A DNA stretch of 64,000 bases from Apostichopus japonicus (taxonomy: Eukaryota; Echinodermata; Holothuroidea; Aspidochirotida; Stichopodidae): positions 24,957,989 to 25,021,988 of the forward strand of contig NC_092572.1 in NCBI RefSeq assembly GCF_037975245.1, given 5' to 3'. Below, piece by piece: positions 5,243-59,494 of this stretch. The translations under genes and the position numbers were made by a program. The stretch's first letter is position 1. The number at the start of each line of letters is the position of its first letter. Below the pieces are notes generated by a model that saw only the letters and a list, made by a program, of their open reading frames with translations, made no database searches and was not told the DNA's origin.

Positions 5243-8200
5243 CTAAAATGAAGCGCATAAGAAATTTGACTCTTAAACAATATTTAAATGAGTTATTTCC
5301 CTGGACATGTAGTACTCGATTAAATAGGTTCAATTTACAGCTTTATATTTACTGTTTATGTAGAAAACATTAATTATAGCAACGTTTCAAGTTTTGGAAA
5401 ATCGTAAAATTAACAATTATAATTCGTCTTAAAGAGTGTGATAAGAAGTGTGATTGAAATATTATGCCTTATAAATTGTGTAATTCGATCGTACGTGTCC
5501 CTACTCAACTATTGGGTGACTTTATTGACAACATTGTGTTCAAATTATGACATATAACAATGTACTGAAAGATTCACTTGTCATCGACTAAGTTTTCAAG
5601 AAGTATATGGACATAAATATTAAAAACTAGAGCTGAGGAAGCATTTTTTGCACTACACCTCCGGTACTTTTTTTAGACAATAACTTTCACCCTAACATTC
5701 ATTTAACAGCTATACAAACTTTTCCAAGTTGTGTAATTTGTATGCATCTAATGTATCACATTTACGTTGACACATTTCACTGTGTGCGATAATGAATGTA
5801 ATCAAAACAAACTTCAAACCCACTTTAACGGTTCCTTAGAAATTAAGTTTATTGCTCCTATTTTTAAATTATCAATTATTTCTTTAATCATATATTTGAA
5901 TAACTTATTTTCTTATGCATTAACAATCTAAAGATTTCAATTCATCGAATATCCTTTGTAATAAATTTTGCCTAGGATCATTACAAACCTTTGGACGAAA
6001 TGAAATACTGGTCGAGTCATGCTGCCGATAAACCCTAAACGTTGCGTAAGGTACACCGGATCTTCTTACACTTGAAATACAGCGGAGAACGAATTCACAT
6101 GACCTATTCTTTGATGACGCAATGTCCTGATAAGATATTTCCTAATAAATAAAAATAAATAGTAGATGTTTACTATTCAATAATATATAATATTAAAACA
6201 TTTGCCAGTATTGAAACCAAATGATGAATTTCATCATGTTTTTAAGAGGGAGTTATCGGAAAGTTTAATGTTTTCAGTGTCACTGTCGCTTTCCTTTTTC
6301 TGTATTCATTATTCAGAATATACTATTATAGGTATGGTAGTAAAACTGTGTTAGCTGTTACAGATGTTACAATTTCTTTCAAAATCTCAGCAAAACAACG
6401 AAAGACTTTTAATTATTAGAAATTAACGATATTTTCGTCGTACCTTCCGACTTTCATCTGCTGTAGTTTTCCACTCCCTTGGTGTTAAATACTTTAGAAA
6501 TATAATCAATGGAGTCGGTTCTTCCTTCTTGAACCAAAACGGTTTGAACTGTCCTACTGTGATGTTTTCATCTATAAAGATCTGAATCAACAAAATCATG
6601 TTATCAGTGATGGTAATACCACACCAATGTTATAGTAGGTAAAGAAATATAGATCATCACATATCTTCATATATCGTACATAAAAGAAACTTTATAAATT
6701 TTTAACATTAAAATAATTTAAGTTATTTCGTTAAATTTACAATGCTTCATCGTGCCATCTAACGGTTTAAACCAGTACAATGGTTTGTAATGTTTGTGTT
6801 TGCATTACAACATGGTATGATCAGAACTTCACTACTTACATCTTCATTGCCCGGCACATCGGCAAAGTAACCAACATTCACAGTTGACTCATTGTCAGTG
6901 TCAATTACCTTGCTGCCGAAAGTGAATATCTTTAGACGTTTGGCCTCAACTATTTCATTGTTTATTCTGAATGTTACCCAGCAAAATTTCTTCAAGTATA
7001 GTTTACATGATTCTTCCTGTAGTTCAAATTTGACTTCTGTGTCTCTTTCCCAGTGGGGTGGGGCTTCTGTTAATAAGAAGTATAAAATGAAAAACGTACT
7101 AAAAGGAAATAAAACATGGCCTATTATCGTATAATGGAATGAAATATATACTTGGAATAAGTTGGAATATGGTGTGTCAACGCACTATGGTGTGTCAACA
7201 CACTATAAACGAACGTTGAGTCGTAACGTTCACACGATATTGTTCGTACATTGGCATTAAAATCACTAAAAACACAATCATGGAAGCAACTATCACGCTA
7301 ATAGGAGTAAGCTTAAAGGCAGGGAACAGTAAGTAAGGAGTTATTATGTATTCAATGTATTGAAATATAAAAATAAGGCTGTTGCAGATAAAAGCCTCTA
7401 ATAATATGCCTTTTCTGCGAGGAACTTGCAACTTATTTTAATTACCGTTGTAGCCATCCAGTTCAACTCTGGGATAGGTAATATTGAAACCACATTATAT
7501 AACTCATTTTCTAGTGATACAGTCAGGAGACTACCTTAACAAGAGCAAATTACATTAAACATATAATGCTAATGATACAAGAGTCTGTTTTGAATTGGCC
7601 AAAATGGAATAATCACGGTCAAAAAATCATTACTGTCATCGTTCTGTTATATCGTCGTAACATCATTAAATAAACATTCTTTCTTTGACGTACGAAACTA
7701 CAGTTTTGTTTGAAAGTAATATGCAAGTCTCTCGCTAACACTCTCCCAGATTATATCTGACTACTCTAGTGTGGAATGAAATAGTAAATATTAAACACAG
7801 TGATACTAAGTCGTATATTATTTGATATAGTCCCTTTAATATGGGACTATACCTTTAACCATCACGGTAAATCAGTTTGTTATGTTTTTTTTCTTCAAAT
7901 AGGTATCAGTTGAAAAAACCCCATAGAAACCAGTAATGTTAAGGGTCAGATACAATTTGCTCTTTTTAAACTGCATTGGGTAAATGGTTAAAAATAAATT
8001 ACACTTACTTGGGTGGTGGTGACTTGCAAAAACCTCCATCGACTCGTTCGTAAATTTTTCCTTCAATTGTAGACAATGTGGTAGATGAAGTTCAACAGCA
8101 GTCTGGAACTCGAAATTGTCCGGAGTCAATTCCACAATGACAGCTGAATTGCTTGCAAATGTAACGTCATCTCCTGTATCTAGATTGCCAGAGATTATTT

Positions 8201-8870
8201 GTATGTGGATTTCACAGTCTTCCAACAGTGCTCCTGGGGGAACTAGAAGGGAAACATCTGTTCCCTTGATCTCTATTCGGCCGCCGTCCTTCGTAATTAT
8301 CTCACTAGACTTGAAACTTACTGCACGTCTATATGTTTGTTCCTCTGTAAGTCAAGTGAACGAACAAATAATATGTGTTTATTGTAACAGTCACACAACT
8401 TCATATGAAGAATAACATTTCACTTAATACGGACATTAGTATTTTAAATGATAAGTGCCCTGTCACATTCAGACAAAAAACTAGACAAGAACAGAAAAGG
8501 CCACATATACACTTACTCATTTCTTTAATAGTATTGCTTCGATATGTTGTAATTTTACTACTTGTTAATAATTTTTATTAATATTCAGAAATGAATTAGA
8601 TAAGCGTTAAGTCACAACTGAAAACAGCGCTATGAAACATTCCACTCTTATGTAAAAAAAAATTATATTTTAAATTAATCATAACTTTCATGTATTTTGT
8701 TCTTATTAAAGCTAGAAGAGAAATTAGAATACCGAAGTGATAGAAAGTCAAGCAGGAGACGAGTTGTAAAAAGAAAGTAACGACGTCTTATCATACAAAC
8801 ATATATTACCGGATTCGTTATGTATGCAAATTGCATCTTTGATTTCGGTATTTCTTGGAAGAGAGCCTCT
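5207..8870 (-). CDS. ZU5-UPA domain protein, 3' exons of a multi-exon receptor gene
   Basis: Six exons join in frame: 8810-8870, 8009-8344, 6840-7066, 6444-6581, 5989-6141 and 5207-5242. Their lengths total 951 nt, or 316 residues and a stop. The product has a short linker, a ZU5 domain (VPPGALLEDCEIHIQI, then ELTPDNFEFQ and VELHLPHC) and a UPA domain (LYLKKFCWVTF, AKRLKIFTFGS). It ends in an acidic tail, IWNDVSEDEEP. ZU5-UPA pairs occur in UNC5 netrin receptors, ankyrins and PIDD, where UPA packs on ZU5 and usually precedes a Death domain. No Death domain follows here. All splice sites are GT/AG. The N-terminal part lies upstream on the minus strand. Exon 11796-11843 and the Ig-TM-coiled-coil exons at 28.9-43.5 kb are in compatible phase. 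The domain call is firm; full gene extent is inferred. Confidence 0.85.
5989..6141 (-). CDS. UPA domain exon 3
   Basis: The 153-bp exon (phase 0 to 0) encodes 51 residues including CEFVLRCISSVRRSGVPYA and FRVYRQHD. It ends the folded part. The splice sites are tttattag and gtttgt. Confidence 0.7.
6444..6581 (-). CDS. UPA domain exon 2
   Basis: The 138-bp exon (phase 0 to 0) encodes 46 residues beginning IFIDENITVGQFKPFW. This continues the UPA beta-sandwich. The splice sites are ttgattcag and gtacga. Confidence 0.75.
6840..7066 (-). CDS. UPA domain exon 1
   Basis: The 227-bp exon begins with two bases completing a Lys codon and ends in phase 0. It carries the UPA signature of a Cys-containing strand and Trp (ESCKLYLKKFCWVTF) followed by AKRLKIFTFGS, like the KRLRVLAFG stretch of UNC5. 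The donor is gtaagt. Confidence 0.8.
8009..8344 (-). CDS. ZU5 domain exon
   Basis: The 336-bp exon (phase 1 to 1) encodes nearly the whole ZU5 domain. Hallmarks are a Gly-Gly turn (TKDGGRIEIKG), the VPPGAL loop, a central ELTPDNFEFQ and the closing ELHLPHCLQLK strand. The donor is gtaagtg and the acceptor ttacag. The codon split at its 3' end (A/AA, Lys) is restored by the next exon. Confidence 0.85.
8810..8870 (-). CDS. Linker exon before ZU5 (phase 0 to 1)
   Basis: The exon is 61 bp, with acceptor ttttacag and donor gtaata. It encodes RGSLPRNTEIKDAICIHNES and one extra base that completes GAG with the ZU5 exon. It is hydrophilic, as expected for a cytoplasmic linker. It was chosen because its phase matches the ZU5 exon exactly. 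Confidence 0.65.
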
Positions 8871-12579: not shown

Positions 12580-13410
12580 AGAGTGAATCATTGTAAACAA
12601 TCACCCCACTGCTAGGAGTGTCATTAAGCACCAAGATTTAATGCCATTAAGTGGCTTACAATACAGTTCTGAGGGGCGTACCAATACGCCCTACTACTGG
12701 TTGTAGTGTCATTTATCACCAAGAAGTAACACCATAAAGTGGCTTACAGTACAGTTCTGAGGGGCGTACCAATACGCCCCGCTACTGGTTGTTGTGTCAT
12801 TTATCACCAAGATTTAATGCCATTAAGTGGCTTACAGTGCAGTTCTGAGGGGCGTACCAATACGTCCCACTACTGGTTGTAGTGTCTTTTATCACCTAGA
12901 AGTAACATCATCAAGTGGCTTACAGTACAATTCTGAGGGGCGTACCAATACGCCCCGCTACTGGTTGTAGTGTCATTTATCACCAAGAAGTAACACCTTT
13001 AAGTGGCTTACAATACAGTTCTGAGGGGCGTACCAATACGCCCCGCTACTGGTTGAAGTGTCATTTATCACCAAGAAGTAACACCTTTAAGTGGCTTACA
13101 ATACAGTTCTGAGGGGCGTACCAATACGCCCCGCTACTGGTTGAAGTGTCATTTATCACCAAGAAGTAACATCATTAAGTGGCTTACAGTTCTGAGGGGC
13201 GTACCAATACGCCCCGCTACTGGTTGTAGAGTCATTTATCACCAAGAAGTAACATCATTAAGTGGCTTACAGTATAGTTCTGAGGGGCGTACCAATAGTG
13301 TCATTTATCACCAAGAAATTGTACCATTAATAACGACACTAAGCGGTTTATAATGCAGTTCTGAAAGATGTATTAAGACCCTCAGATTGTTCTAATGGGC
13401 ATACCAATAC
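12580..13410 (+). repeat. Left palindrome array, 88-bp period, about eight copies
   Basis: The core GGGGCGTACCAATACGCCCC starts at 12673, 12761, 12849 (one change), 12937, 13024, 13113, 13196 and 13283 (truncated). Decayed copies sit near 12590 and 13396. Each core has 8-bp inverted arms around a CCAA spacer. The linker is also conserved (ctactggttgtagtgtcatttatcaccaagaagtaac). The same core appears in inverse orientation at 26.27-26.78 kb, so the two arrays behave like sub-terminal repeats of one mobile element. Such arrays are typical transposase or host-factor binding platforms; that role is inferred. Confidence 0.9.
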
Positions 13411-27970: not shown

Positions 27971-28887
27971 AAAACCGTCGGTAAATAATGTACAGTAGTG
28001 CAAAATCTTTAAACCAGGAAAGTTGAACTGTTGCATGAAACATGGTACTACAATGCTATTCCGTTAAGTACATCACTTGCACCAACTAAAACCTTGGGTT
28101 AAGTTTACAGTTTCTTCATAATTTGTATTTTTAATTTCCATCTTATATATTCTTGTTCATCATTTGACAACACTTGATAAAATTAACGTGACAACCGTCT
28201 TTGCCTTGTCTGGAGATCGACGGCTGTCTTACTATTGAACATTTTCCGCTGACTTTGTCTTAAAACAACATCTTCAGTTGATCTACATAAGGTCCAATGC
28301 TTTTAAAACTAAACAAAAAAAAAGTATAGTAGTGTAATAGCTTGGAAAGTTATGCCTCGGTTGGTTTCAGGTGTGGGTTGATGGCATTTAGTAAGTTAGG
28401 TTAAATAGTAACTAGACTCAATTTTAATTGCTGGTAGTATATACCTGAAACATTGATCCAGTAACCCCTTTTTAGAGCAATCAAAAGAAAAATAAATTAA
28501 CACAAACAAAAACGCACGAATGCTAGTTAAGATAATGTGTAGGACTCATCTGTAATTTCTTCTTTGTAAATGTTCCTGGCCATTGACAATTACTAAACAC
28601 CAATGTTCGTATAGGTTGATCTTAGATTAAGTTTTGAAACAATGTAATATTCACAGTAACAATGCACCTGAATTTGATTGAGGCGGTTAGTTTTTTGGGA
28701 GGGGGATTGTGGAATAGTCTTCGTAGCAATAAAATAGCGTATGAGGTATAATCCAAGATTTTCAATAACCCAACAAGTTTTTTTCATTTAGAATACAAAG
28801 TTTCAAAAGAACGTTATTTCATAACAATTCAAATTCAAAGAAAGAACAAGATCATGTGTCATTTACCTTCGCTTGATTAATTTAAGT

Positions 28888-28992
28888 TTACTTCTTGCTT
28901 TCTTCAAATGAATTATATAAAGGAATTATCTTTAGTTTTGTTTCCTTCTCAGTAAGATTGTTCTTAACTTTTTCAAGTTCATCTGTTGTATC
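28888..28992 (-). CDS. Coiled-coil exon 8 of 8, terminal
   Basis: It reads DTTDELEKVKNNLTEKETKL, then KIIPLYNSFEESKK and TAA. The donor GT of the other copies is changed to AT here, so the frame continues to a stop. It would be a terminal exon. Confidence 0.5.
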   Translation of the reverse strand, partial: DTTDELEKVKNNLTEKETKLKIIPLYNSFEESKK

Positions 28993-30738
28993 CTGCTCGT
29001 ATTTAGAGGAACGAATACAAATGTAAGAAACAATACTTTCAAGATATTTTCAAAAAATACATGAATTGTTTTATACCTATAGACACAATTTCAGAAATGT
29101 ATATGCCTTTATGATACAGTCGCTCTAAAAATAACTTTAATATTGTCAAACATTAGTCCTATATGTAATCAAATTCATTTGTATTCGTTCATGAAGTCTG
29201 ATATGTGAAACAGTATAAGTATATATGAGATATATTCGGGTATCGCTGATCAGTTATCTTTAATTCATATTCAGATGAGTTTTCTTTGCCTTGTTTTAGG
29301 CAGTGAAGGACTTGGAGATGGTGGAATATCTCCTTAGAATTAACATGCATATGAAAAAAAAAGATGAATAACAAATCATACTGATAGGTCTCTACATTCT
29401 TATCACTAAGAATACCAAATTCTAAAAGGATATTTTGTTCATGAAGATTCCAATTCCAATAATGAAGATGTACATGTGTCATTTGCATACACTTGATTCA
29501 TTTAGGATTACTTCTTGCATCCTTCAAATGAATAACTAGAAATGAATTACCGTTAGTTTTGTCTCCTTCTCAGTAAGATCGTTCTTAACTTGTTCAAGTT
29601 CTGCTGTTGTATCCTGCTCGTATTCAGAAGAACGAATACAGATGTAAGAAACAATACTTTCAAGATATTTCAAAAACACATGACTTATTTTGAACCTATA
29701 GACACAATTTCAGAAATGTATATGTCTTTATGATAAAGTTGCTCTAAAAATAACTTCAATATTGTCAAACATTAGTCTTATGTGTAACCAAATTCAATTG
29801 TATTCTTTCAAGAAGTCTGATATGTGAAAAAAGCATAAGTATATATGAGATATATTAGGGTATCGCTGATCAGTTATCTTTCATTTATATTCAGATGAGT
29901 TTTCTTTGCCTTGTTTTAGGCAGTGAAGGACTTGGAGATGGTGGAATGTCTCCTTAGAAATAACATGCATATGAAAAAAAGATGAATAACAAATCATACT
30001 GATAGATCTCTACATTCTTATCACTAAGAATACCAAATTCTAAAAGGATATTTTGTTCATGAAGATTCCAATTCCAATAATGAAGATGTACATGTGTCAT
30101 TTGCATACACTTGATTCATTTAGGATTACTTCTTGCATCATTCAAATGAATAACTTGAAATGAATTACCATTAGTTTTGTCTCCTTCTCAGTAAGATCGT
30201 TCTTAACTTGTTCAAGTTCTGCTGTTGTATCCTGCTCGTTTTCAGAGGAACGAATACAGATGTAAGAAACAATACTTTCAAGATATTTCAAAAACACATG
30301 ACTTATTTTGAACCTATAGACACAATTTCAGAAATGTATATGTCTTTATGATACAGTTGCTCTAAAAATAACTTCAATATTGTCAAACATTAGTCTTATG
30401 TGTAACAAATTCAATTGTATTCTTTCAAGAAGTCTGATATGTGAAAAAAGCATAAGTATGTATAAGATATATTAGGGTATCGCTGATCAGTTATCTTTAA
30501 TTCATATTTTGTTCTATGCATTAGTTCTGTGACATTTGTAATGTGACTTGAATGTCCGTACGTTCTCCTCCTCTTTGCTATTGAGAAACCACGAATAAAA
30601 TGATAATTCCTTTTTTAATGAGATTTATTAAATGGATTTTATGTAGAAAAAAGGTTAAAAAAAAACATTTTCTAATCGTTTAATAAAAAAAGAACTCATT
30701 ATGCCCTGCATTTCTATGTATTTTTAATATATATTTTT

Positions 30739-30826
<88 letters not shown>

Positions 30827-33800
30827 AATGAATATTTTCTTTTAAATAATTAATATTTCTTTCTTTAACTCCTTAGTTCCCAATTGTGCTCATATTATTG
30901 TCCTTTTGGGAAAAATATTTACACATTGTAATTACTTAAAATTTGGTCATTTTTTTTTTCAATAGGGACCCAAGTATTGACAGATAGGTATTGAAATGAG
31001 GCTTTAATTTTTTCAGTCTTATTTATAATTGTACTAATTAGATATGTCAATATGCAAATGAGGTCATCATACATACACTGTACTTTTCTTTGCCCATTTG
31101 AAAATATTTTGATGAAATCTACTGGACTTTTGATAGTTCGATGAGTTCAAGACATGTTATTTTATAAGTAAAATATAATTTGATGTTTGAATGTGAAGAA
31201 TATGACTGATTTTTGGACGTTTTGTTAAATTTTCAATCGCGAATAAATTACTTTTTTTACAGGCTACCAAATTTAGGGTTTAAATCAAAGTTATGGTCTC
31301 CATGCTGGTTAAGGGGTCTTCCGAGGTGATAAGTATAGACTGTTGTTCATCCACATAATATTTGGCACCTCAGTTGTTGCTATAACTGGAGCAAGGGTTT
31401 AATACAAGGCTAATTAGTATGCGCATATTTAAAAAAGTTGTACAAACAATACACAAAAAAGGGAAACAAATTGCTTTACCTTTTGAAATTTCTTATTCCA
31501 ACTTAAAAAACCGGTTCATTCCCCTCCCTCAATTATATCTACTACCAGGTTGCCAACCCCTCTCTTTGCTGTTGTCTCCAATTCATTCATTAATCTTAAT
31601 ATGTATTTCTATCATTCATGATACTATTGAAATCCATATGTTGCTGGAGAAACTTACTTAGACCCATTTATGTGCAAATTTAGACATTAGAAAATTCAAT
31701 ATCACATTGTAATTTACTGACTGATGTACATGTGTCATTTGCATACGCTTGATTCATTTAGGATTACTTCTTGCATTCTTCAAATGAATAACTTGAAATG
31801 AATTACCATTAGTTTTGTCTCCTTCTCAGTAAGATCGTTCTTAACTTGTTCAAGTTCTGCTGTTGTATCCTGCTCGTTTTCAGAGGAACGAATACAGATG
31901 TAAGAAACAATACTTTCAAGATATTTCAAAAACACATGACTTATTTTGAACCTATAGACACAATTTCAGAAATGTATATGTCTTTATGATACAGTTGCTC
32001 TAAAAATAACTTCAATATTGTCAAACATTAGTCTTATGTGTAACCAAATTCAATTGTATTCTTTCAAGAAGTCTGATATGTGAAAAAAGCATAAGTATGT
32101 ATAAGATATATTAGGGTATCGCTGATCAGTTATCTTTAATTCATATTCAGATGAGTTTTCTTTGCCTTGTTTTAGGCAGTGAAGGACTTGGAGATGGTGG
32201 AATATCTCCTTAGAATTAACATGCATATGAAAAAAAGATGAATAACAAATCATACTGATAGGTCTCTACATTCTTATCACTAAGAATACCAAATTCTCAA
32301 AGGATATTTTGTACATGAAGATTCCAATTCCAATAATGAAGATGTACATGTGTCATTTGCATACACTTGATTCATTTAGGATTACTTCTTGCATCCTTCA
32401 AATGAATAACTTGAAATGAATTACCGTTAGTTTTGTCTCCTTCTCAGTAAGATCGTTCTTAACTTGTTCAAGTTCTGCTGTTGTATCCTGCTCGTATTCA
32501 GAGGAACGAATACAGATGTAAGAAACAATACTTTCAAGATATTTCAAAAACACATGACTTATTTTGAACCTATAGACACAATTTCAGAAATGTATATGTC
32601 TTTATGATACAGTTGCTCTAAAAATAACTTTAATATTGTCAAACATTAGTCTTATGTGTAACCAAATTCAATTGTATTCTTTCAAGAAGTTTAATATGTG
32701 AAAAAAGCATCAGTATATATGAAATATATTAGGGTATCGCTGATGAGTTATCTTTAATTCATATTCAGATGAGTTTTCTTTGCCTTGTTTTAGGCAGTGA
32801 AGGACTTGGAGATGGTGGAATATCTCCTTAGAATTAACATGCATATGGCATATGAAAAAAAAGAAAGATGAATAACAAATCATACTGATAGGTCTCTACA
32901 TTCTTATCACTAAGAATACCAAATTCTATAATGATGTTTTTTTTTACTGAAGATTCAAATTCCAAGAAGGAAGATGATCATGTGTCACTTGCTTATGTTT
33001 AATTCATTTAATTTTCCTTCTTGCATCCTTCAAAAGAATAATTAGAAAGTAAATACCGTTAGTTTTGATTCCTTCTCAGTAAGATCGTTCTTAACCCTTT
33101 CAAGTTCTGCTGATGTATCCTGCTCGTTTTTACATGGACGAGTACAGATCTGAGACAAAATACATTCAAGATCTATTCCATTAATATATGAACTATTTTG
33201 AAATTTTACACAGTATTAACAAAAAATTATGTCTTCATAATAAATCTGCTATAAAACTCCCTTTACTAATGTCAAGCATTAGTCTTATATCTATACACAT
33301 TAATTTGTATTCGCTCAAGAAGTCTGATTTGTGAAAAAATATAAGTATATATAAGATATATTAGGATACCGCTGATCAGACATCCCTAATTTATATTCAG
33401 ATGAGTTTTCTTTGCCATTGTTTAAGGCTGTGGAGTACTTAGAGATGGTGAAATGTCTTTTTAGGAATAGCGTGCATATGAAAATTAAACAGATGAATAA
33501 CAAATGATAATTATAGAACTCTTCATTCTTATTACTAAAAATACTAAAGTCTACAAGGATGTTATGTTTTTGTAATAGTGATTAAAATTCAAAGTAGAGA
33601 GATGTGCATATGTTATATCCTTGATTATGATTCATTTAAGTTTTCTTCTTGTATTCTTCAAATGAATTATTAGAAGTAATTACCGTTAGTGCCATCTCCT
33701 TCTCAGTAAGATCGTTCTTAATCTGTTCAAGTTCTGCTGTTGTATCCTGCTCGTATTCCGAGGAAGGAATGCAGATGTAAGAAAAAATAATTCCAAGATA

Positions 33801-35657
33801 TATTCAAAAAAAAATGAATGATTTGAACCTTTACACACCTTTACACACCTTTAGTCTTAGATCTAAACACATGCATTTGTATTCGCTCAAGAAGTCTGAT
33901 TTTTGAAGAAAAAAAATAAGTATACATGAGATATATAAGGGTACCGCTGATCAGACATACCTAATTCATCTTTAGATGAGTTTTCTTTGCCATTGATTGA
34001 GGAGGACATGGATATGGTGAAATGTCTTTTTAGAAATAGCGTGCATATGATAATTAAGCAGATGAAAAAGAATGATAATAATAGAACTCTTTATTCTTAT
34101 TACTAAAAATACCAAAGTCTACAAGGATGTTTTATTTTTGTAATCATGATTAAAATTCAAAAAAGAGAGCTGAATATTTTTAGATTTTATGATGTCCTGT
34201 CGTGTTGGTTTTAAGGTTCTAACTTCAATTTGATTTCTAACTTTTTAGCGTTCAAATTGTAGATTTTGTGGTCAGTCTGTTTTATCGCTTTACTTTTCAC
34301 CAGTGCTTTCAATAGTTTTTCGATCTAATATTCCTGTATATATCTGTAGATGGTATATGTATTTACTCTGTTTTTTGTATTTAATGTTTTATTTCATTGT
34401 ATTTCTAGATTGTTTGTAAAGCGCACATATGCATCGCGCGTAGTGCGCTATATAAGATTTTATTTACATTTAAATTAGTCTCATATCTAACCACAGTCAT
34501 TTGTATTTGTTAAACAAGTCTGATGTGTGAAAAAAGGTATTAATATATAAGAGATCTATTAGGGTATCGCCCATCAGTTATCATTAATTCATATTCAGAT
34601 CACTTTTATTTGTCTTCGTTTAGGGGATGGAGTGCTTGGAGATGGTGAATGTCTCTTCAGAAAACGTGCTTTTGAAATTAACCGATGAATAAGAAAGTAT
34701 ACTGGTAGAGCTCTCAGATTTATAAATAAGAATATATAGTTCAATTAGATTTTTTGTTCAGGAAGATTAACATTCAAAGAAGGAAGGGGATCATGTGTCA
34801 TTTGCTGTAGCTTAATACATTTAAGTTTACTTCTTGCATTCTTCAAATTAATTATTATAAAGAAAGAAATTACAGTTAGTGTCGTCTCTTTCTCAGTAAG
34901 ATTGCTATTAACCTTTTCAAGTTCTGCTGTTGTACCCTGCTCATATACAAAAGAACAAATACAGATGTAAGTAAAAAATACTTTCAAGATATATTCAATA
35001 AATATATGAATTATTTTTAACCTATACCCACAATTTGCAAATATATTATTTCCTCATGATATAGCTGCTGTATATGAATATATATTTTTGTTATTAAATA
35101 TATTTAATAATGTCAAGCATTAGTCTTTTATCTAACTTTATCTTCATGAGAAAGCTGCTTTTAGAGAAAGTTGAATAATGCCAAACATTACTCTATTATT
35201 TTCCTCATTCTTTTCCATAAATTATGGTATAGTTAATCCGTTATTGTCATATTGAATAACGTAATCTTCAAAATACAGACTAATTATGTTTAAGAAAATA
35301 TCTACAAATAACGATAAAATCCTTACAACAAATTAATTGTCATTTTATGGCTGTTGTATCTAAGTATCAATCTTCAAGAATAAAATTCAAAGGTTATATA
35401 ACAACAAAACATGTTTATTTATTTATTTTGTTCTATGCATTAGTTCTGTGACATTTGTAATGTGACTTGAATGTCCGTACGTTCTCCTCCTCTTTGCTAT
35501 TGAGAAACCACGAATAAAATGATAATTCCTTTTTTAATGAGATTTATTAAATGGATTTTATGTAGAAAAAAGGTTAAAAAAAAACACTTTCTAATCGTTT
35601 AATAAAAAAAGAACTCATTATGCCCTGCATTTCTATGTATTTTTAATATATATTTTT

Positions 35658-35725
<68 letters not shown>

Positions 35726-38700
35726 AATGAAAATTTTCTTTTAAATAATTAATATTTCTTTCTTTAACTCCTTAGTTCCCAATTGTGCTCATATTATTGT
35801 CCTTGGGGGAAAAATATTTACACATTGTAATTACTTAAAATTTGGTCATTTTTTTTTTCAATAGGGACCCAAGTATTGACAGATAGGTATTGAAATGAGG
35901 CTTTAATTTTTTCAATCTTATTTATAATTGTACTAATTAGATATGTCAATATGCAAATGAGGTCATCATACATACACTGTACTTTTCTTTGCCCATTTGA
36001 AAATATTTTGATGAAATCTACTGGACTTTTGATAGTTCGATGAGTTCAAGACATGTTATTTTATAAGTAAAATATAATTTGATGTTTGAATGTGAAGAAT
36101 ATGACTGATTTTTGGACGTTTTGTTAAATTTTCAATCGCGAATAAATTACTTTTTTTACAGGCTACCAAATTTAGGGTTTAAATCAAAGTTATGGTCTCC
36201 ATGCTGGTTAAGGGGTCTTCCGAGGTGATAAGTATAGACTGTTGTTCATCCACATAATATTTGGCACCTCAGTTGTTGCTATAACTGGAGCAAGGGTTTA
36301 ATACAAGGCTAATTAGTATGCGCATATTTAAAAAAGTTGTACAAACAATACACAAAAAAGGGAAACAAATTGCTTTACCTTTTGAAATTTCTTATTCCAA
36401 CTTAAAAAACCGGTTCATTCCCCTCCCTCAGTTATATCTACTACCAGGTTGCCAACCCCTCTCTTTGCTGTTGTCTCCAATTCATTCATTAATCTTAATA
36501 TGTATTTCTATCATTCATGATACTATTGAAATCCATATGTTGCTGGAGAAACTTACTTAGACCCATTTATGTGCAAATTTAGACATTAGAAAATTCAATA
36601 TCACATTGTAATTTGCTGACTGTACTCTTTGACTTCAGGTTTTAGCTCTATTGTTATGTATTTCGTATTTCGACGTCAATTTCTTCTTATACTCGATATA
36701 TTATACTTGTTTAATAAGACAGGGAACGAAGTAAGAACGTTTTTTTTTTTTTTTTTCTGTATGCACTTCTTATAACCTCCTAATGTAACGCCGTACTAGC
36801 AAATTTCTTCTCCTCTTTGATTTAAACTGAAATATTAAATGATAATTAAAATTAAATTGACGATTTTACTTTGTCTTTTAAAATTTGTTTCTGAATATCT
36901 GATTCATTATTTAATGGAACTATAAATCTAATCATTTATACGTTAGACGTCATATCTGCTCAATTGTATGTTATTTAAAGCAAATCGAAACATACGTTCA
37001 AGATATTAAAATATATGATCTCTGACGTTGTTTATTTACCTATTACGAAGTAACCTAATCCAAAATAAATCAAATTGAATTAGCGGAATAGAAAGAGTAA
37101 TATTATTCTGACTGAATATTAGTAAAAATAAGGTTGGGCGAAATGACCATGCTGGTTGGGCGAAATGACCAAGCTGGTTGGGCGAAAAGACTATGATGGT
37201 TGGGCGAAATGACCAGGCTGGTTGGGCGAAATGACAGTTGGGCGAAATGGTTGTTGGGCGAAGTGACTAGAAAGCGCTTGATCCACTATCAACACCAATT
37301 GGGTAGCAAACAAGCAACATGAAACAATGTGATCCTAGCGTTATCACTTCAAGTAAGGTCATGCGAGTTGTTTCGGAAATAAATAAAAACTACACATGAC
37401 CTCGGTTAAAAGTTGTTGTGCGATACACTGTGTAATGCGTTTCTGAAAATAATTCATGACATAAAAACTTTAAATTGATAATTTTATGCAAAGTTTTTTA
37501 CAAACCTCAATACGTGTCTGTTTCAATTGATCTTTCCCGATGGTCCTTTCTCTTCGTTTAACTATTATTGGTTACATAAAACATAAAATCATCTTTTCTA
37601 TATATTCTTGTAAACTTTCACGTCTATTCCGTGTATGCTTCATATGGCATCCTTTCTTTTTTATGGTTCTAGTATATAATATATGTTTCGTTGAGGGTTC
37701 TGTCAACGTTTATGGTACAAAAAATGAATGTTCTTTCTTTCTATGGCATGTTCCTATACGAGCGACGGCCTTTTCCTTTTCTTAGTTTCACGTTCCCTTT
37801 ATTTCTACCTCGTTCAGCTTTAATTTAGCTCCTTCACTGCCACTTTTGCCATTTATAAAAGTACCATAAAACACCCAATTTAATTCCTGAAGTGATGAGT
37901 CAATGTTATATCAATGAAGGTGGAAATTGATTGATTTTCCGATTCCTTCTCTTTCGAACTAAAGTTCTGCCAAACATTTCATAATTACACAAGAGATATT
38001 TACGGTTTTGCTTGTTTTATTTGGGGGGGGGGGGAGTTGAAGGCCGAGATAGAAAAGGGAGGGCACTTGGCTTTACGGTTCTACTTATACGTCATGTCGA
38101 CGGAATTCCGATACTCGTTAACAATACATGATTACGTAATGCTTAAGGATGCAAAAAACCATGGCTAAATATTAAGCATCCAATTAACTCAACAAGTAAA
38201 GCAATCAATAAAATATTTGAGGGGGTTATCCCAGAACGAGTTGTGACAGTATCCTTTCATTTCAATTTTGTTGAAACTAAATAAATAATATGCACAGTAG
38301 TTAGTGAAAAGGACATTCAATAAAAGTGTTTTGTAAGTTTTGGTAGTTTACTTTACATACCGTATAAAGTTTGCATTAAGATAATTGATAAAATCATAAG
38401 CATCATGGAGATCCACCCAACTGATGATATATCTGATAAGAAAAAAATCATTATTTTTTCGATTGAACCATTGCGTTTAGCAAAATAAATAGACAATGTA
38501 TGATAGATATACATGAACATTTAAAAATATAATTAGCATCCAATTAACTCAACACGTAAAGCATTCAATAAAATATTTGAGGGGGTTATCCCAGAACGAG
38601 TTGTGACAGTATCCTTTCCTTTCAATTTTGTTGAAACTAAAGAAATAATATGCACAGTAGTTAGCGAAAAGGACGTTAAAAAAGTGGAATTCAAGTTTTG

Positions 38701-41700
38701 GTAGTTTACTTTACATACCGAATATATTTGGCATTATGATCATTGATATCATCATATGCAGTATGGAGATCCACTCAACTGATGATATATCTGATAAGAA
38801 ACAAACCATTATTTTTTTCAATTGAACCATTGCGTTTAGCACAATGAATAGACAATGTATGTTAGATATACATTAACATTTAAAAATATAATTAGCATCC
38901 AATTAACTCAACACGTAAAGCAATAAATAAAATATTTGAGGGGGTTATCCCAGAACGAGTTGTGACAGTATCCTTTCCTTTCAATTTTGTTAAAACTAAA
39001 GATATAATATACACAACAGTTAGGGAAAAAGGACATTAAAAAAGTGTTTTTTTTAAGTTTTGGTAGTCTACTTTACATACCGTATATATTTGTCATTATG
39101 ATCATTGATGATATCATAAGCAGCATGGAGATCCACCCAATTGATGCTAGATCTGATAAGAAAAAAAATCATTATTTCTTTTCGATTGAACCATTGCGTT
39201 TTGCACAATAAATAAAAAATGTATGATAGATATACATGAACATTTAAAAATATAATTAGCATCCAATCAACTCAACACTTAAAACAATCAATAAAATAGT
39301 TGCGGGGTTATCCCAGAACGAGTTGTGACAGTATCCTTTCCTTTCAACTTCATAAAACTATAGAAATAATATGCACAATAGTTAGTGAAGATGACAATCC
39401 ATAAAAGGTGTTTGTAAGTTTTGGTAGTTTACTTTACATACCGTATGTATATACAATTATGATAGTTAATATAATCATATGCAGTATGAAGATCCACGCA
39501 GCTGATGACATATCTGATAAGAAAAAAAAATCGTTATATTTTTTCCATGGAATCATTGCATTTAGCCAATAAATAGACAATTCATGATAGACAAACATAA
39601 ACATTTAAACATAAAATTAGCATCCAATTAACTCAAACGTTAAGCAATCAATTGAATATTAGAGGGGGTTATCCCAGAACGAGTTGTGACAGTATCCTTT
39701 CCTTTCAATTTTGTTAAAACTAAAGAAATAATATGCACAGTAGTTAGTGAAAATGACAATCGATAAAAGGTGTTTGTAAGTTTTGGTAGTTTAATTTACA
39801 TACCGTTTATATTTTTCATTATGATAACTGATATAATTATATGCAGTATGTAGATCCACGTAACTGATGATATACCTGATAAGAAAAAAAAATCATTTAT
39901 TTTTTCGATGGAATCATTGCATTTAGCACAATAAATAGACGATGTATGATAGACATACATAAACATTTAAAAATATAATTAGCATCCAATTAACTCAACA
40001 CGTAAAGCAATCAATGAAATATTTGAGGGGGTTATCCCAGAACGAGTTGTGACAGTATCCTTTCCTTTCAATTTTGTTGAAACTAAACAAATAATATGCA
40101 CAGTAGTTAGTGAAAATGACAATCGATTAAAGGTGTTTGTAAGTGTTGGTAGTATACTTTACATACCGAGCATATATGTCGTTTTGAAAATTTCTAAAAT
40201 GAAAGGCATCATGGAGATCCACATAACTGATGATATATCTGATAAGAAAAAAAACATTATTTTTTTTCGATTGAACCATTGCGTTTAGCACAATTAATAG
40301 ACAATGTATGATAGATATACATGAACATTTAAAAATATAATTAGCATCCAATTAACTCAAAACGTAAAGCAATCAATAAAATATTTGAGGGGGTTATCCC
40401 AGAACGAGTTGTGACTGTATACTTTCCTTTCAATTTTGTTGAAACTAAAGAAATAATATGCACAGCAGTTAGTGAAAAGAACATTAAAAAAGTGGTTTGT
40501 AAGTTTTGGTTGTCTACTTTACATACCGTTTATATCTTTCATTATGATCATTGATATCATCATAAGCAGCAAGGAGATCCACCCAACTGATGATATATCT
40601 GATAAGAAAAAAATCATTATTTTTTTCAATTGAATCATTGCATTTAGCACAATAAATAGACAATGTATGATAGACATACATAACATTTAAAAATATAATT
40701 AGCATCCAATTAACTCAACACGTAAAGCAATCAATAAAATATTTGAGGGGGTTATCCCAGAACGTACAAGTTAAATTTGTTTCCTTAGAGGGCTCCACTT
40801 GAAGAATATAACTTTTATTTGGTTTACACTGTTCGATACCGAAACTGAAATCTGAATGGAAAAAAAGGTATATGTAAAAACGAAACAAATGCAACCTTTC
40901 TTTAATAGAAACTCAATAATGGAAGGTTTTTTGCAATTCTCGACAAAACCAAATACTGAATGTTCACAAAAAAAAAATATTAATACAAACCAGACAGAGC
41001 CCATAAATAGTCAAAAACAGTCTTTAAAAATGTACATTACCAAGCACAGTGTTTTGTGAGCATTTATCCTCCATACAATGAGCAATCAGTTCATACAACC
41101 ACATCACCCACAAGGTTACATAAAATATAATATGATGTTCATTGTGTGCATAGAAAGAAATTTCCAAACATGTTTTCAAGACTTATTTAAAAGTTACAGT
41201 ACTGTGGAACAAGGCACACGTGATTCACATCATAACTTACCATTCACCGTGACCTCAATTGACACAGCTCCGCGACAGTTGGTATTTTCTGATAGAATTC
41301 TGCAATGATATATTCCCCCTTCTGCTAGGGTAACATCGTAAATGACGAGACTACCATCCTCATTCACTAAATATTTCTCCGAATCAGAGCTAGGGATGCC
41401 AAGAACTCTTGATGCTAAGCTCTGGCTAGTTGAAAAATCTTCTCCTTTACTCCAGAAGTAAGCCGTCTCATCACCTTTAGGTACACACGGCACCACTGCT
41501 GTTCCACCTGTCTCGATGGAGAATACTGGCCAGTTTGCAAGAGCTGGTTGAACTAGATTAAATGAATGTAAATTTTTATTTGATTTTGAATACAGGATCA
41601 GAAGTTTTATTTACCCGGCTTTATCTGAACGGAGTGACAATCTCGTTATCACCATTGCTTTCATGGATACAAAAAACGATTAACTCGTTAACTCAAATCC

Positions 41701-43542
41701 AAGTAGTATGCACACACATTGGTATATTGCTGAAAACACTGCTGTGCAGAGGAACTGTGTTCTAAAGCGTTGAATATTATTGAACATTAACTAGCATTGC
41801 CTAGTTGAAGAATTAAGTAGTAGGGTGTTGGGCGATTGAGGGGTTTGGGGGTACAGTTCAAAACACGGGACATTCACCATTGTGATTATATTACACAACA
41901 TCATAGGCGGATCCAAGATTTAATGAGTAAGGCTGGGTGATCATTAGATTATTGCAGTGAACTTCTATTTGAGGAGAGGGATCCGAGGAAATTATATTTA
42001 CCTACTGATGCGGCCTGATGCATTTTTAAATAATAAGTTAGTTATATAGTTAAGTCGAACCCAATATTTTTTTCTTGGGAAAAAGAGGGAGGGGAAGGCA
42101 GACGGAATTTCCGAGGAACAGGTCAAAGCTTTTATATACACAGTTTAAATTCCGAATTAACAATTCGCATATCCAACAAATTGGACGAAGATGGTCAAAC
42201 TTAAAAAAATAGGAGAAAAACTTTTAACTTTATGTTCAACATCTCATTTTGGATATCGTAGCATCTGCAATTTAGGCGAAACATCTTTCTTGCACATAAC
42301 CTAACACTACTGGTCTTATAAAATACATGCACATTATGATGTATTTCTTGGTCGTATTATTTTCGTATCATTTAGTAAGTTTTCCTTTGCTTTCTTTTCA
42401 TTGTTCATTGTATTTTCAATATATTTCGGTCTTGATTTTTTCTCATTTTTCAACTCTTTGACAAGACCCTCGGTTCTTTATTGGTTTCACTTCCCTCTAC
42501 TCCATTGCTTTTCATATTGTGTGCAACTTGTTCTATTTAATGTTGTTTAAAACAAATAAACGAAACGAGTTTTCTTTTCTCATTGAACCGAGCTATAACA
42601 TAAATAAAATATGAAGGTAGCCTTTATGTGAGTGTTGTCACAACAGACTAAGCAAAACGTTTCCCCCTTTTTCTTTTTCACATATAAAGACTGATATTGT
42701 GATGCAAGCATCTCTTATTTGACGTCATTTCATTCAAATGTGCAGGTTTTTTCACCTTCCTCACTCCTGTAGAAGCCGATAGGTTAGTTCATTGTCTAGG
42801 GTCTAGAGTCCAAATGTGCAGACCTTTATGATAATGTAGAGGAGCAATATATATGATTTATTACAAAACATTGGGTACAAAAAAAATAACTAGGTGAAAT
42901 ATTGACATTGTTTTGAAAATATATCACAATTATCCATTTGAGGGAGCAGATTTATTGGGGGGGGGGGGGTGCTTTACTGTGTGGACACCTTTTTAATATG
43001 TTGAATGCAGTTTTAATACACATACAAAGAAATATCTAATGGAACGTTACCATATCAATATAGATTAAATATACTGCATAGAGTTAGGTATCTTGGCTAA
43101 AAGTATTTTGCTACGTATATTTTTTTAGATTTAGTTCGAAAACTACCGCAATCAGTGTAATGCATTTGTTGAGATTGCACATATCGTCACTTCTTACTGT
43201 AATCTTAATAGCACATACTAACGATTTATCAGCACAAAAAGGTTTTTACTGTAGTACAAAACTTTAGGATTTACAGTAGTAACTGTAATCTGTGTGAATC
43301 AGTTGAATCCGTCGATTAATAACCGTGATATTATCCAATATACGTTAAGGCCAAGTTAATAATTCTCGAACTAAACAATAGAAAATGAAACTAGATGATA
43401 GGCATTTTTCCATAGTTGAGCGACGTGTTAAAACTTGAACATTCACTTCGTGGTATCTTTGAAGAAATCAACAAAGAATGCACTTACCATATATACTTGA
43501 AAGGCAGATGGCCAAACTGAAAGAAACGCAATTGAGGTTCAT
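28888..43542 (-). CDS. Ig-TM-coiled-coil receptor gene with tandem alternative exons
   Basis: The signal peptide exon (43488-43542) and Ig exon (41241-41552) are followed by seven tandem 72-bp TM exons (38361-40598), a basic juxtamembrane exon (37506-37561) and eight coiled-coil exons (28888-34936). All junctions are phase-compatible: 1-1 for Ig and TM exons, 1-0 for the juxtamembrane exon and 0-0 for coil exons. The topology is sensible, with Ig outside and KRRER right after the TM on the inside. Only one TM exon is presumably used per mRNA. The coil exons can all be joined without breaking frame or heptad register. The last coil exon has lost its donor and runs into a stop. Donors of the other coil exons are also in phase with the ZU5-UPA exons beyond 12 kb. 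Exons are read directly; their grouping into one gene and the splicing pattern are inferred. Confidence 0.65.
29551..29613 (-). CDS. Coiled-coil exon 7 of 8
   Basis: The 63-bp exon encodes the consensus peptide. It is the last copy with a working donor (gtaatt), so it is the likely exit to exons further downstream. Confidence 0.6.
30169..30231 (-). CDS. Coiled-coil exon 6 of 8
   Basis: The 63-bp exon encodes the same peptide as exon 5 and is separated from it by the inserted 1.2-kb duplicate. The donor is gtaatt. Confidence 0.6.
30505..31723. repeat. 1.2-kb duplicated segment, copy 1
   Basis: This segment is nearly identical to 35424-36622 and differs mainly in the (TA)n length (30738-30820). 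It replaces part of one coil-array unit: array sequence breaks at ttcatat and resumes at atgtacatgtgtcatttgc. The 80-residue open frame in it is probably not a gene. Confidence 0.9.
31807..31869 (-). CDS. Coiled-coil exon 5 of 8
   Basis: The 63-bp exon differs from the consensus only in its last residue (Met for Thr). The donor is gtaatt. Confidence 0.6.
32425..32487 (-). CDS. Coiled-coil exon 4 of 8
   Basis: The 63-bp exon encodes DTTAELEQVKNDLTEKETKL plus T, the consensus of the set. The donor is gtaatt. Confidence 0.6.
33057..33119 (-). CDS. Coiled-coil exon 3 of 8
   Basis: The 63-bp exon encodes DTSAELERVKNDLTEKESKL plus T. The donor is gtattt. Confidence 0.6.
33684..33746 (-). CDS. Coiled-coil exon 2 of 8
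   Basis: The 63-bp exon encodes DTTAELEQIKNDLTEKEMAL plus T. The acceptor is acgagcag and the donor gtaatt. Confidence 0.6.
34330..34475 (+). repeat. Retroposon 3' end with GCGC hairpin tail
   Basis: The sequence tgtaaagcgcacatatgcat and gcgcgtagtgcgctatataa followed by a T/A-rich tail resembles the 3' ends of many LINE/SINE families. A related fragment is at about 45730-45790 (catcgtgcgtagtgcgctat). Confidence 0.5.
34874..34936 (-). CDS. Coiled-coil exon 1 of 8
   Basis: The 63-bp exon (phase 0-0) encodes 21 residues, GTTAELEKVNSNLTEKETTL plus T. Leu recurs every seven residues. The donor is gtaatt. Confidence 0.6.
35424..36622. repeat. 1.2-kb duplicated segment, copy 2
   Basis: This is the counterpart of 30505-31723, outside the coil array. 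It includes a (TA)n run at about 35660-35720. No terminal repeats or clear target duplications are visible. Segmental duplication or an unrecognised transposon are both possible. Confidence 0.9.
37133..37271 (+). repeat. 22-bp minisatellite
   Basis: The unit gttgggcgaaatgaccatgctg is repeated about six times, the last copies shortened. It lies between the coil and TM arrays. Confidence 0.85.
37506..37561 (-). CDS. Juxtamembrane exon leading into the coiled coil
   Basis: The 56-bp exon (phase 1 to 0) reads VKRRERTIGKDQLKQTRIE. The basic start fits the inner face of the membrane and the rest is helical. It converts the TM exon phase (1) to the coil exon phase (0), so it is the expected connector. 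The acceptor is ccaataatag and the donor gtttgt. Confidence 0.55.
37906..37958 (-). CDS. Possible alternative terminal exon, short basic tail
   Basis: After acceptor gaactttag, in the phase expected after a TM exon, the frame reads VRKRRNRKINQFPPSLI and stops at TAA. The basic cluster right after the membrane fits a stop-transfer sequence. Using it would give a tail-less receptor. The acceptor has a weak pyrimidine tract, so it may be chance. Confidence 0.35.
38361..38432 (-). CDS. Alternative TM exon 7 of 7
   Basis: It reads ISSVGWISMMLMILSIILM followed by QTLY. It is a good membrane helix. It is the copy nearest the juxtamembrane exons. Confidence 0.7.
38719..38790 (-). CDS. Alternative TM exon 6 of 7
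   Basis: It reads ISSVEWISILHMMISMIIM followed by PNIF. It is hydrophobic with one Glu near the outer edge. Splice sites are intact. Confidence 0.65.
39081..39152 (-). CDS. Alternative TM exon 5 of 7
   Basis: It reads LASIGWISMLLMISSMIIM followed by TNIY. It is a good membrane helix with intact splice sites. Confidence 0.65.
39442..39513 (-). CDS. Alternative TM exon 4 of 7
   Basis: It reads MSSAAWIFILHMIILTIIIV followed by YTY. It is a good membrane helix with intact splice sites. Confidence 0.65.
39804..39875 (-). CDS. Alternative TM exon 3 of 7
   Basis: It reads ISSVTWIYILHIIISVIIM followed by KNIN. It is strongly hydrophobic with intact splice sites. The first codon becomes Gly rather than Asp. 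Confidence 0.65.
40167..40238 (-). CDS. Alternative TM exon 2 of 7, divergent
   Basis: It reads ISSVMWISMMPFILEIFKTT, with Pro, Glu and Lys in the helix. This is the weakest membrane segment of the set and may be degenerate. The splice sites are intact. Confidence 0.55.
40527..40598 (-). CDS. Alternative TM exon 1 of 7
   Basis: In phase 1 it reads ISSVGWISLLLMMISMIIM followed by KDIN, a membrane-spanning helix. The acceptor is ttcttatcag and the donor gtatgt. Confidence 0.7.
40768..40875 (-). pseudogene. Truncated second Ig exon
   Basis: After an acceptor (tttccattcag) the frame reads FSFGIEQCKPNKSYILQVEP then SKETNLTCTFWDN. This looks like the A-to-C strands of an Ig domain and resembles CEPTQYLVVGKPGKLECAF of the NACHT receptor. 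It then runs into the repeat unit of the TM-exon array and a stop. Its 3' half was probably lost when the array expanded. Confidence 0.5.
41241..41552 (-). CDS. Ig domain exon (V-like)
   Basis: The 312-bp exon (phase 1 to 1) encodes one Ig domain. Visible are TAVVPCVPKGDETAYFWSKG with the first Cys and core Trp, DGSLVIYDVTLAEGGIYHC with the second Cys and the D.G.Y.C motif, and a closing G strand SIEVTVN. The acceptor is taatctag and the donor gtaagt. Confidence 0.85.
41553..43487. other. Intron 1 of the Ig-TM-coiled-coil gene
   Basis: No coding sequence is supported. It contains a poly-G run near 42957-42970 and one copy of a diverged duplicate (about 43183-43300) whose partner is at about 44093-44205. 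Confidence 0.45.
43488..43542 (-). CDS. Signal peptide exon of the Ig-TM-coiled-coil gene
   Basis: ATG opens MNLNCVSFSLAICLSSIY, a typical short hydrophobic signal peptide. It ends in phase 1 at donor gtaagtg. The split codon G/TT joins the Ig exon as Val. Confidence 0.75.
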
Positions 43543-44639
43543 CGTGTCGGCGTGATGCAACGTAGAAACAGATTATAAATTCAATGCCATACATATACAA
43601 TATTGGTGTTAACACAAGCAAGCCTGTAGCTTCTTTCACTTAATAATCATTAGATTAATCCTTGACAAAGTGTTGGTAGAACCCCACAGACTGCATGACT
43701 TTGCGCAAAAAATGTAACTGTCATCAAACAGTAAAAGGCATAGACTACATTACAGTACATGATAATTATATCACACGAGGTGTAGTGATATGTATTCCAG
43801 CTACAAGGTACAAAGGTTGCTATGCAGCACTTTACAAACAGCCAGCCCGAATCGAAAGTTAATACCTAGTAGATGCCACAGCCTTTGTCACCGATGCCAT
43901 GTTGACATGATGATTATACTATATTCATTGTGGCAATGCGCATACGATACACACATAGACATAATAACTACTATAAATCTTAACATTTTATACCACAGTG
44001 AAAACTGGATCATGCATTAAATCGAAAGTATGTGCTATGGGAGGGTATGTGTAACCCCAACAAATCCAGTTTGTTGCAATTTTTGGTTTACCCATATTCT
44101 CAGTTCTTAATGTAAACCTAATAGCACATGCTACCGATGTATCAGATTTATCGGCATGTTCCACTTCTTACTGTGGTACACAAATCTGTGTGAATTGGTT
44201 GCCATGCGCTATGGCATAGCCGAGTTACTTCGTTACTAGACTTAAATTAGTCATAATGGCCAATGCGTACTTTGAGCGGTTACTTGCAAACTGTTTACTT
44301 TAGGATATAAGACTACATATGATGAATACTGTATACTGAGTATATTTTAATATCATAATTTTACAGTATGTATAGTCATCAACAGCTGGCACAAGGGGCA
44401 TCAATCCAAAGACAAGGGTAGGGGGAGAGAAATTGTACATACGAAGAAAAACATACATGCATACGCACATACATAAGCCCATACAAACACACATGCATAT
44501 TAACAAATAAATATAATATATGCATGACTCAGAGCTTCCCTATAAAATCTGTTACATAAATATGCTACTGGTATTAAATTATGCTCTAATGTATTCCACC
44601 TCATTAATATTTAAATATATATATATATAATTGAAATCG

Positions 44640-51656: not shown

Positions 51657-59494
<7,838 letters not shown>

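Follow-up and report, generated by a model that had tools for sequence, protein, structure and literature searches.

Organization of the transmembrane-exon array

The window analysed here is a 64,000-nucleotide stretch of the Apostichopus japonicus genome (contig NC_092572.1, C12:24957989-25021988), which carries on its minus strand, within an apparent immunoglobulin (Ig) receptor gene, seven tandem exons encoding transmembrane (TM) segments. The exons are 72 nucleotides (nt) long and lie in tandem units of about 361 bp, with an exon-to-exon spacing of 358-363 bp (repeat family D2) and intervening introns of about 289 nt. A preliminary description of this DNA had reported seven tandem 72-nt exons sharing phase 1-1, acceptor and donor between positions 38221 and 40765. 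This span contains the whole array, and the description was borne out in every copy; the strand, not named at that time, is the minus strand. Read in phase 1-1 (frame f2), 7/7 exons are open; read in phase 2-2, one of the seven contains a stop. The acceptor (TTTCTTATCAG) is the same in all exons over 11/11 columns, as is the donor (exonic G followed by GTATGTAA) over 9/9, giving 20 splice-site columns that are invariant across the seven copies.

In the order of transcription, the gene would consist of a signal peptide, Ig1, a remnant of Ig2, the seven TM exons and eight coiled-coil exons (Table 1). The latter, found as a second tandem exon array of the same gene, are 63-nt exons repeated in units of about 620 bp over 28930..34936; all eight are open, and a GT donor is present in seven of them, with AT in the last. 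A 42-nt repeated stretch (KENSSEYKL) in these 620-bp units was discarded as an exon, with stops in five of seven copies; one of the two open copies has no AG acceptor and the other no GT donor.

Table 1. Coordinates of the features of the TM-array gene and of its paralogue (positions in the window unless preceded by C12)
Feature	Coordinates	Strand	Sequence	Remarks
Signal-peptide exon	43488..43542	minus	MNLNCVSFSLAICLSSIY	ends in phase 1; open; GTAAGT donor
Ig1 (V-type) exon	41241..41552	minus		phase 1-1; open
Ig2 5′ remnant	40768..40851	minus		ends where the first dispersed-repeat end starts; possible chance donor GTACGT, phase 1
TM exon copy 1	40527-40598	minus	ISSVGWISLLLMMISMIIMKDIN	AG...GT flanks
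TM exon copy 2	40167-40238	minus	ISSVMWISMMPFILEIFKTTYML	poorly hydrophobic; AG...GT flanks
TM exon copy 3	39804-39875	minus	ISSVTWIYILHIIISVIIMKNIN	AG...GT flanks
TM exon copy 4	39442-39513	minus	MSSAAWIFILHMIILTIIIVYTY	48% identity to sister TM over 21 aa, E 0.074
TM exon copy 5	39081-39152	minus	LASIGWISMLLMISSMIIMTNIY	AG...GT flanks
TM exon copy 6	38719-38790	minus	ISSVEWISILHMMISMIIMPNIF	weakly hydrophobic; stop in its phase 2-2 frame
TM exon copy 7	38361-38432	minus	ISSVGWISMMLMILSIILMQTLY	AG...GT flanks
Dispersed-repeat end (about 80 bp), eight copies	38155..40764			family D4; starts 38155, 38515, 38874, 39238, 39598, 39961, 40323, 40681
Candidate juxtamembrane/repeat hybrid exon, one per unit	38276..40444	minus		starts 40444, 40082, 39719, 39357, 38995, 38636, 38276
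Apparent longer repeat copy	37640..38248	minus		within ancestral juxtamembrane exon; extent judged by eye
Candidate adaptor exon	37506..37561	minus	(V)KRRERTIGKDQLKQTRIE	phase 1 to 0; weak acceptor
Coiled-coil exons 1-4	34874-34936, 33684-33746, 33057-33119, 32425-32487	minus		63 nt, phase 0-0
Coiled-coil exons 5-8	31807-31869, 30169-30231, 29551-29613, 28930-28992	minus		63 nt, phase 0-0
Paralogue L009	C12:24864500-24868800			about 92 kb before the window start

Sister genes and identity of the exons

The 671.6-Mb genome of A. japonicus was searched for related loci. Annotated relatives led to a family whose members have a signal peptide, Ig1, an optional Ig2 and a TM helix starting with (D/G)KSSARWI. 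The annotated sister proteins read Ig-(Ig)-TM-coiled coil, and the coiled-coil-like tail of P0004-P0006 is made of 21-residue repeats. Another relative, P0002, matches a gene cluster at C12:13.99-14.39 Mb, in which the TM exon is 87 nt long, has phase 1-1 and is followed by a donor that starts identically to those of the window exons.

All seven units of the array were matched by a DNA query taken from a sister TM-exon locus on the same contig, at a distance of about 11 Mb. The search with one sister TM locus yielded 16 matches, all on C12, corresponding to seven single sister loci, the seven window units and two copies in a paralogue; no array was found in the sister genes by this search, each of them having one 87-nt TM exon. 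Identity between the window units and sister locus L032 was 69-75% over 258-289 columns (E 2e-46 to 3e-19), in alignments that take in the exon and both flanking introns (about 250 nt); for some of the other sister loci the alignment is poorer or limited to pieces. The 87-, 81- and 72-nt lengths of the TM exons differ by multiples of three and hence in frame. This homology to a phase 1-1 sister TM exon, introns included, and the in-frame length series indicate that both the frame and the TM label of the preliminary description were right. Since the units are true tandem duplicates and one sister locus matches all seven, the array is not a chance arrangement. Two other ways of reading the exons were dropped: a frame shift in their second half, because the identical donor closes the sister TM exon, and a Dscam-like Ig half-domain, once the sister TM exon had been found.

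The paralogue (L009) appears in the protein search as P0001, with an N-terminus similar to the signal-peptide exon of the window. Its Ig2 exon is full length (C12:24866370-24866065), with a stop near its end, and is followed by a truncated TM copy and then by one of 81 nt. In P0001, the only domains that Pfam finds are of the Ig type (V-set/Ig_3). Nonsynonymous (pN) and synonymous (pS) differences between the Ig1 exons of window and paralogue are 0.067 and 0.112, respectively, and the window Ig1 exon is 86% identical to residues 23-129 of P0002.

Some further features of these relatives were observed. Positions 27403-48607 of the window form a large segmental duplication with C12:24848001-24878000, the longest stretches being 94-96% identical. 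Sister gene L035 (C12:14228598-14229703) has lost most of Ig2 yet is annotated with many isoforms, whose clusters P0004, P0005 and P0006 (6, 1 and 10 members) differ in the number of coiled-coil repeats. In L037 (C12:14392160 region), the first full codon of the TM exon is a stop (TAA), so this gene may be a pseudogene.

Amino acid change among the seven copies

Variable columns among the seven copies were counted at each codon position and in ungapped intron columns, from which 12 acceptor-side and 7 donor-side columns had been excluded beforehand. Variability affected 16/24 first, 14/24 second and 7/24 third positions, and 48/163 intron columns. The first two positions taken together (30/48) exceeded the introns (Fisher p = 6.7e-5) and the third position (p = 0.012), and third positions and introns were equally variable (p = 1). 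When each unit was dropped in turn, the corresponding p values ranged from 8.8e-6 to 0.003 and from 0.0056 to 0.05. Moreover, the most variable 72-column segment of the unit coincides with the exon within two bases; its 37 variable columns and three-base periodicity of 9 compare with maxima of 26 and 7 in 131 non-overlapping segments.

A codon model returned an omega of 55 with the intron tree (p = 3e-8) or 66 with the unit tree (p = 8e-9), and a non-significant omega of 0.59-0.60 for the phase 2-2 frame; this model is our own code and not a published program, and the NG86 method and two hydropathy scales were used beside it. The observed pN-pS was reached in 0/2000 stop-free neutral simulations at each of two rates, both of them higher than the divergence shown by the introns (FastTree branch lengths). 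The hydropathy of the copies is above the neutral expectation (P = 0.007). Residue types are somewhat more numerous in the cytoplasmic, second half of the helix (37 over 11 codons) than in the first half (30 over 12). As a control, six of the seven single-copy sister TM exons were compared and showed no acceleration, with 9/29, 10/29 and 14/29 variable columns at the three positions and 34/102 in the intron (5/29, 10/29, 14/29 and 27/108 without L037).

These data suggest diversifying selection on the TM helix. As the repeat end described below is already present in every array unit, loss of the juxtamembrane exon preceded the divergence of the copies. A selective cause would then mean that the gene was still in use once that exon had gone. 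The excess of amino acid change in the helices argues against simple decay.

A dispersed repeat and the proposed origin of the array

The seven TM exons are flanked and separated by eight copies of the end of a dispersed repeat, each of about 80 bp. At least 38 further genomic sites carry the same end (40 of 72 candidates scored); the six of them that were aligned have a sharp boundary at TGTCAC in common. The element is probably transposable, with no family assigned. An apparent longer copy in the window includes a further stretch of about 60 bp that is common to five of the six genomic copies.

Five sister loci were compared, and each has an uninterrupted juxtamembrane exon about 88 nt after the TM exon; in the window gene and its paralogue this exon is broken by the repeat end (TGTCACAACTCGTTCTGGG...). 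The array unit is made up of TM exon, intron, juxtamembrane stub and 80 bp of repeat. Since this unit includes the repeat end, and there are eight ends for seven exons, insertion of the repeat probably preceded amplification. The Ig2 exon stops where the first repeat end starts, which suggests that a deletion joined the two. The order of events that we infer from this anatomy is that a dispersed repeat would have inserted in the exon right after the TM exon, the unit of TM exon and 80-bp repeat end would then have been copied in tandem, and a deletion would have taken out most of Ig2.

Possible transcripts and products

Ig1 ends in phase 1 and the TM exons are of phase 1-1, so that Ig1 could be joined in frame to any of them. 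Direct joining of Ig1 to the TM exon is annotated in P0004-P0006, which derive from L035; as Ig2 is also cut in that sister gene, this domain is optional in the family. Beyond the TM exon, the sequence would allow continuation into the hybrid exon of each unit or through the candidate adaptor to the coiled-coil exons. The predicted hybrid exons in frame with the TM exon would extend the protein by a 2- to 34-residue tail before a stop, for example VLTKLKGKDTVTTRSG..., with VL in the fourth unit and VSTKLK in the last, each followed by the stop; most of the tails have several lysines. The candidate adaptor exon aligns loosely with the FNTKTGEQEKELGQ.. exon of the sister genes.

On the minus strand of 36900-40800, AATAAA occurs at 39901, 38021, 37803 and 37036 and ATTAAA at 39795, 37884, 37824 and 36915; from these positions, a polyadenylation signal is not present once per TM unit. 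An Rfam scan of 28000-44000 matched nothing at E values up to 0.1.

Interpretation and alternatives

The reading that we favour, at a little less than even odds, is that a remodelled Ig-receptor gene carries a cassette array of TM exons, with one helix per transcript. If the gene is expressed, as we infer, it would produce membrane proteins with a single Ig domain, each bearing one of the seven helices and ending in a short tail, or in a coiled-coil tail reached through the adaptor exon. Alternative splicing of the TM exons would be plausible. The residues of the helix would have been diversified by selection, somewhat more in the cytoplasmic half, and this might plausibly alter partner choice or sorting; the choice of tail would be a further variable. 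A bolder proposal, which we regard as rather unlikely, is that this would be the first receptor gene whose diversified and selectable part is the helix in the membrane: seven hydrophobic helices driven apart after a mobile repeat had removed the juxtamembrane exon, which combined with one ectodomain and repeat-derived tails would change partners, sorting or signalling.

Several observations weigh against a working cassette array. The gene has no complete Ig2 exon, the remnant being cut after 84 nt, up to the possible donor; the juxtamembrane exon is interrupted 27-29 nt in, in 7/7 units, and the acceptor of the next exon is uncertain. The best 19-residue hydropathy of the helices is 1.36-2.38, versus 2.75-3.42 in three sister helices, and on two scales five of the seven are predicted to be membrane-competent and copies 2 and 6 are not. 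Three protein searches (123-392, 211-670 and 80-255 aa, with proteins longer than 392 aa covered by the P0002 query only) found no protein with the window Ig1, which is an absence from the database and not proof of silence. The synonymous difference among the copies (0.037) is lower than that of the introns (0.119; P = 0.001 or less in simulations), and positive selection alone leaves this low value unexplained. At the exon-matched rate, pN alone was reached in 5.6% of neutral runs, and seven stop-free copies were obtained in 5% and 12% of neutral runs (P = 0.066 in a separate test). Regarding the coiled-coil exons, no purifying selection was detected among them (omega 0.99): eight copies free of stops have a neutral P of 0.27, and although the exons differ less than their introns (0.105 vs 0.171), variable columns give p = 0.068. 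Finally, one inverted-repeat scan for RNA pairing that would enforce exclusion, with 25 of its 29 pairs covered, showed no constant-region site pairing with all units; there were only weak matches (72-76%), which link acceptor regions to sequence inside copies 1 and 6.

The chief rival is a decaying tandem duplication, in which TM exon and repeat end were amplified jointly after loss of the juxtamembrane exon, and the copies would be open by youth and chance, with none used. The broken surroundings keep it a serious rival, with a substantial chance of being correct: the truncated Ig2, the broken juxtamembrane exon and the doubtful next acceptor all fit it, as do the missing Ig1-bearing protein, the lower hydrophobicity of the helices and the 5-12% neutral chance of stop-free copies. 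The paralogue at 24.866 Mb, in which Ig2 has a stop close to its end and the first TM copy is truncated, points in the same direction. However, decay predicts equal change across codon positions and introns, whereas first and second positions vary about twice as often and third positions do not, and all 20 splice-site columns have stayed invariant in the seven copies.

A second alternative, which we consider improbable, is that the exons are not alternatives and two or more of them are spliced in together, resulting in a protein with several hydrophobic segments. Each exon is symmetric (72 nt, phase 1-1), so several could indeed be joined, and the sister coiled-coil repeats are annotated together in varying number in P0004-P0006; as no exclusion device turned up in the one scan, joint inclusion stays a live rival. 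On the other hand, a chain of 24-residue hydrophobic segments would be unusual for a type I receptor, and several copies contain polar residues (K, D, E, H). The phase 2-2 frame, whose polar peptides with tyrosine motifs (YIISWVDLHDAYDFINYLNANFIR) look coherent (omega 0.59), was rejected on the homology to the sister TM exon, read in phase 1-1, and is scarcely credible, given the stop in one of seven copies and in the 81-nt exon of the paralogue, the phase 1 end of Ig1 and an omega not significantly below 1.

Comparison with other alternative-exon arrays

Arrays of alternative exons in receptors are usually taken to vary extracellular binding. The preliminary description had further held that no described receptor has a TM cassette array, a claim that fails because alternative TM exons are known in Dscam, an Ig receptor. 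Exon 17 of Drosophila Dscam has two mutually exclusive variants encoding the TM domain (PMC1397879, PMC3364881), and the TM exons of Dscam in Penaeus monodon are 32.1 and 32.2 (PMC6851185), both being two-member TM arrays. The window gene resembles these arthropod Dscam1 genes, as described there, in placing tandem exons for the TM segment in a gene of an Ig-superfamily receptor. In Dscam1 there are two variants, one per mRNA, whereas the window has seven predicted ones; the window gene also differs in encoding an unrelated short Ig protein, in having a repeat end in every unit and in its accelerated helix. Membership in the Dscam family was excluded by the architecture, which lacks 10 Ig and 6 FNIII domains and has just Ig1 and the Ig2 remnant upstream. 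The array may possibly work like Dscam exon 17.

The exon 4, 6 and 9 arrays of Dscam1 are likewise large and made of exons duplicated in tandem within a single gene, but they vary the ectodomain, whereas the window array varies the TM helix. RNA selector structures are reported for genes of the Dscam1 type (PMC8042237, PMC6071210); unlike in those genes, none was found for the window array in the one scan. Among the literature matches listed, with few subscription journals covered, there was neither a single-pass receptor with a TM array exceeding two exons nor a paper on this gene family. Given the Dscam cases, alternative TM exons are a known kind of arrangement, and seven accelerated copies are new.

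Closer to hand, the sister genes P0002 and P0004-P0006 share with the window gene the signal peptide, Ig1, (Ig2), TM and coiled-coil repeats, and have a homologous TM exon with its introns; they differ in having a single 87-nt TM exon whose helix is not accelerated. The source name of P0001, 'tyrosine-protein phosphatase non-receptor type substrate 1-like', recalls SIRP-alpha, which is likewise an Ig-domain membrane receptor. The match is weak (2wng, E 0.0016), contactin and NCAM chains score better, and the likeness is one of generic Ig similarity only.

If the proposed helix array with above-neutral amino acid change is real, rapid evolution can act on the choice of partners within the membrane. 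The locus would then serve as a test case: a single ectodomain comes with seven natural helices, the sister genes with their one helix provide controls, and the paralogue holds a full and a truncated copy.

Other features of the window

An apparent Ig - TM - NACHT gene lies on the minus strand at 53283-54887 (NACHT domain, E 3.6e-20). With it, on the same strand, go two weak Ig-like open reading frames (ORFs) below the Pfam cut-offs (56642-57010 and 57579-58370), a TM-like ORF (55982-56335) and an ORF with no Pfam match (58714-59238). An Ig-NACHT receptor is reported from A. japonicus (PMC8699970). Elsewhere, the window contains a 22-bp minisatellite of GGTTGGGCGAAATGACCATGCT-like units (37132-37241), a minus-strand ORF with a ZU5 domain (7872-8351, E 1.3e-11) and a tandem array of about 88-bp units that are about 90% identical (12608-13297).

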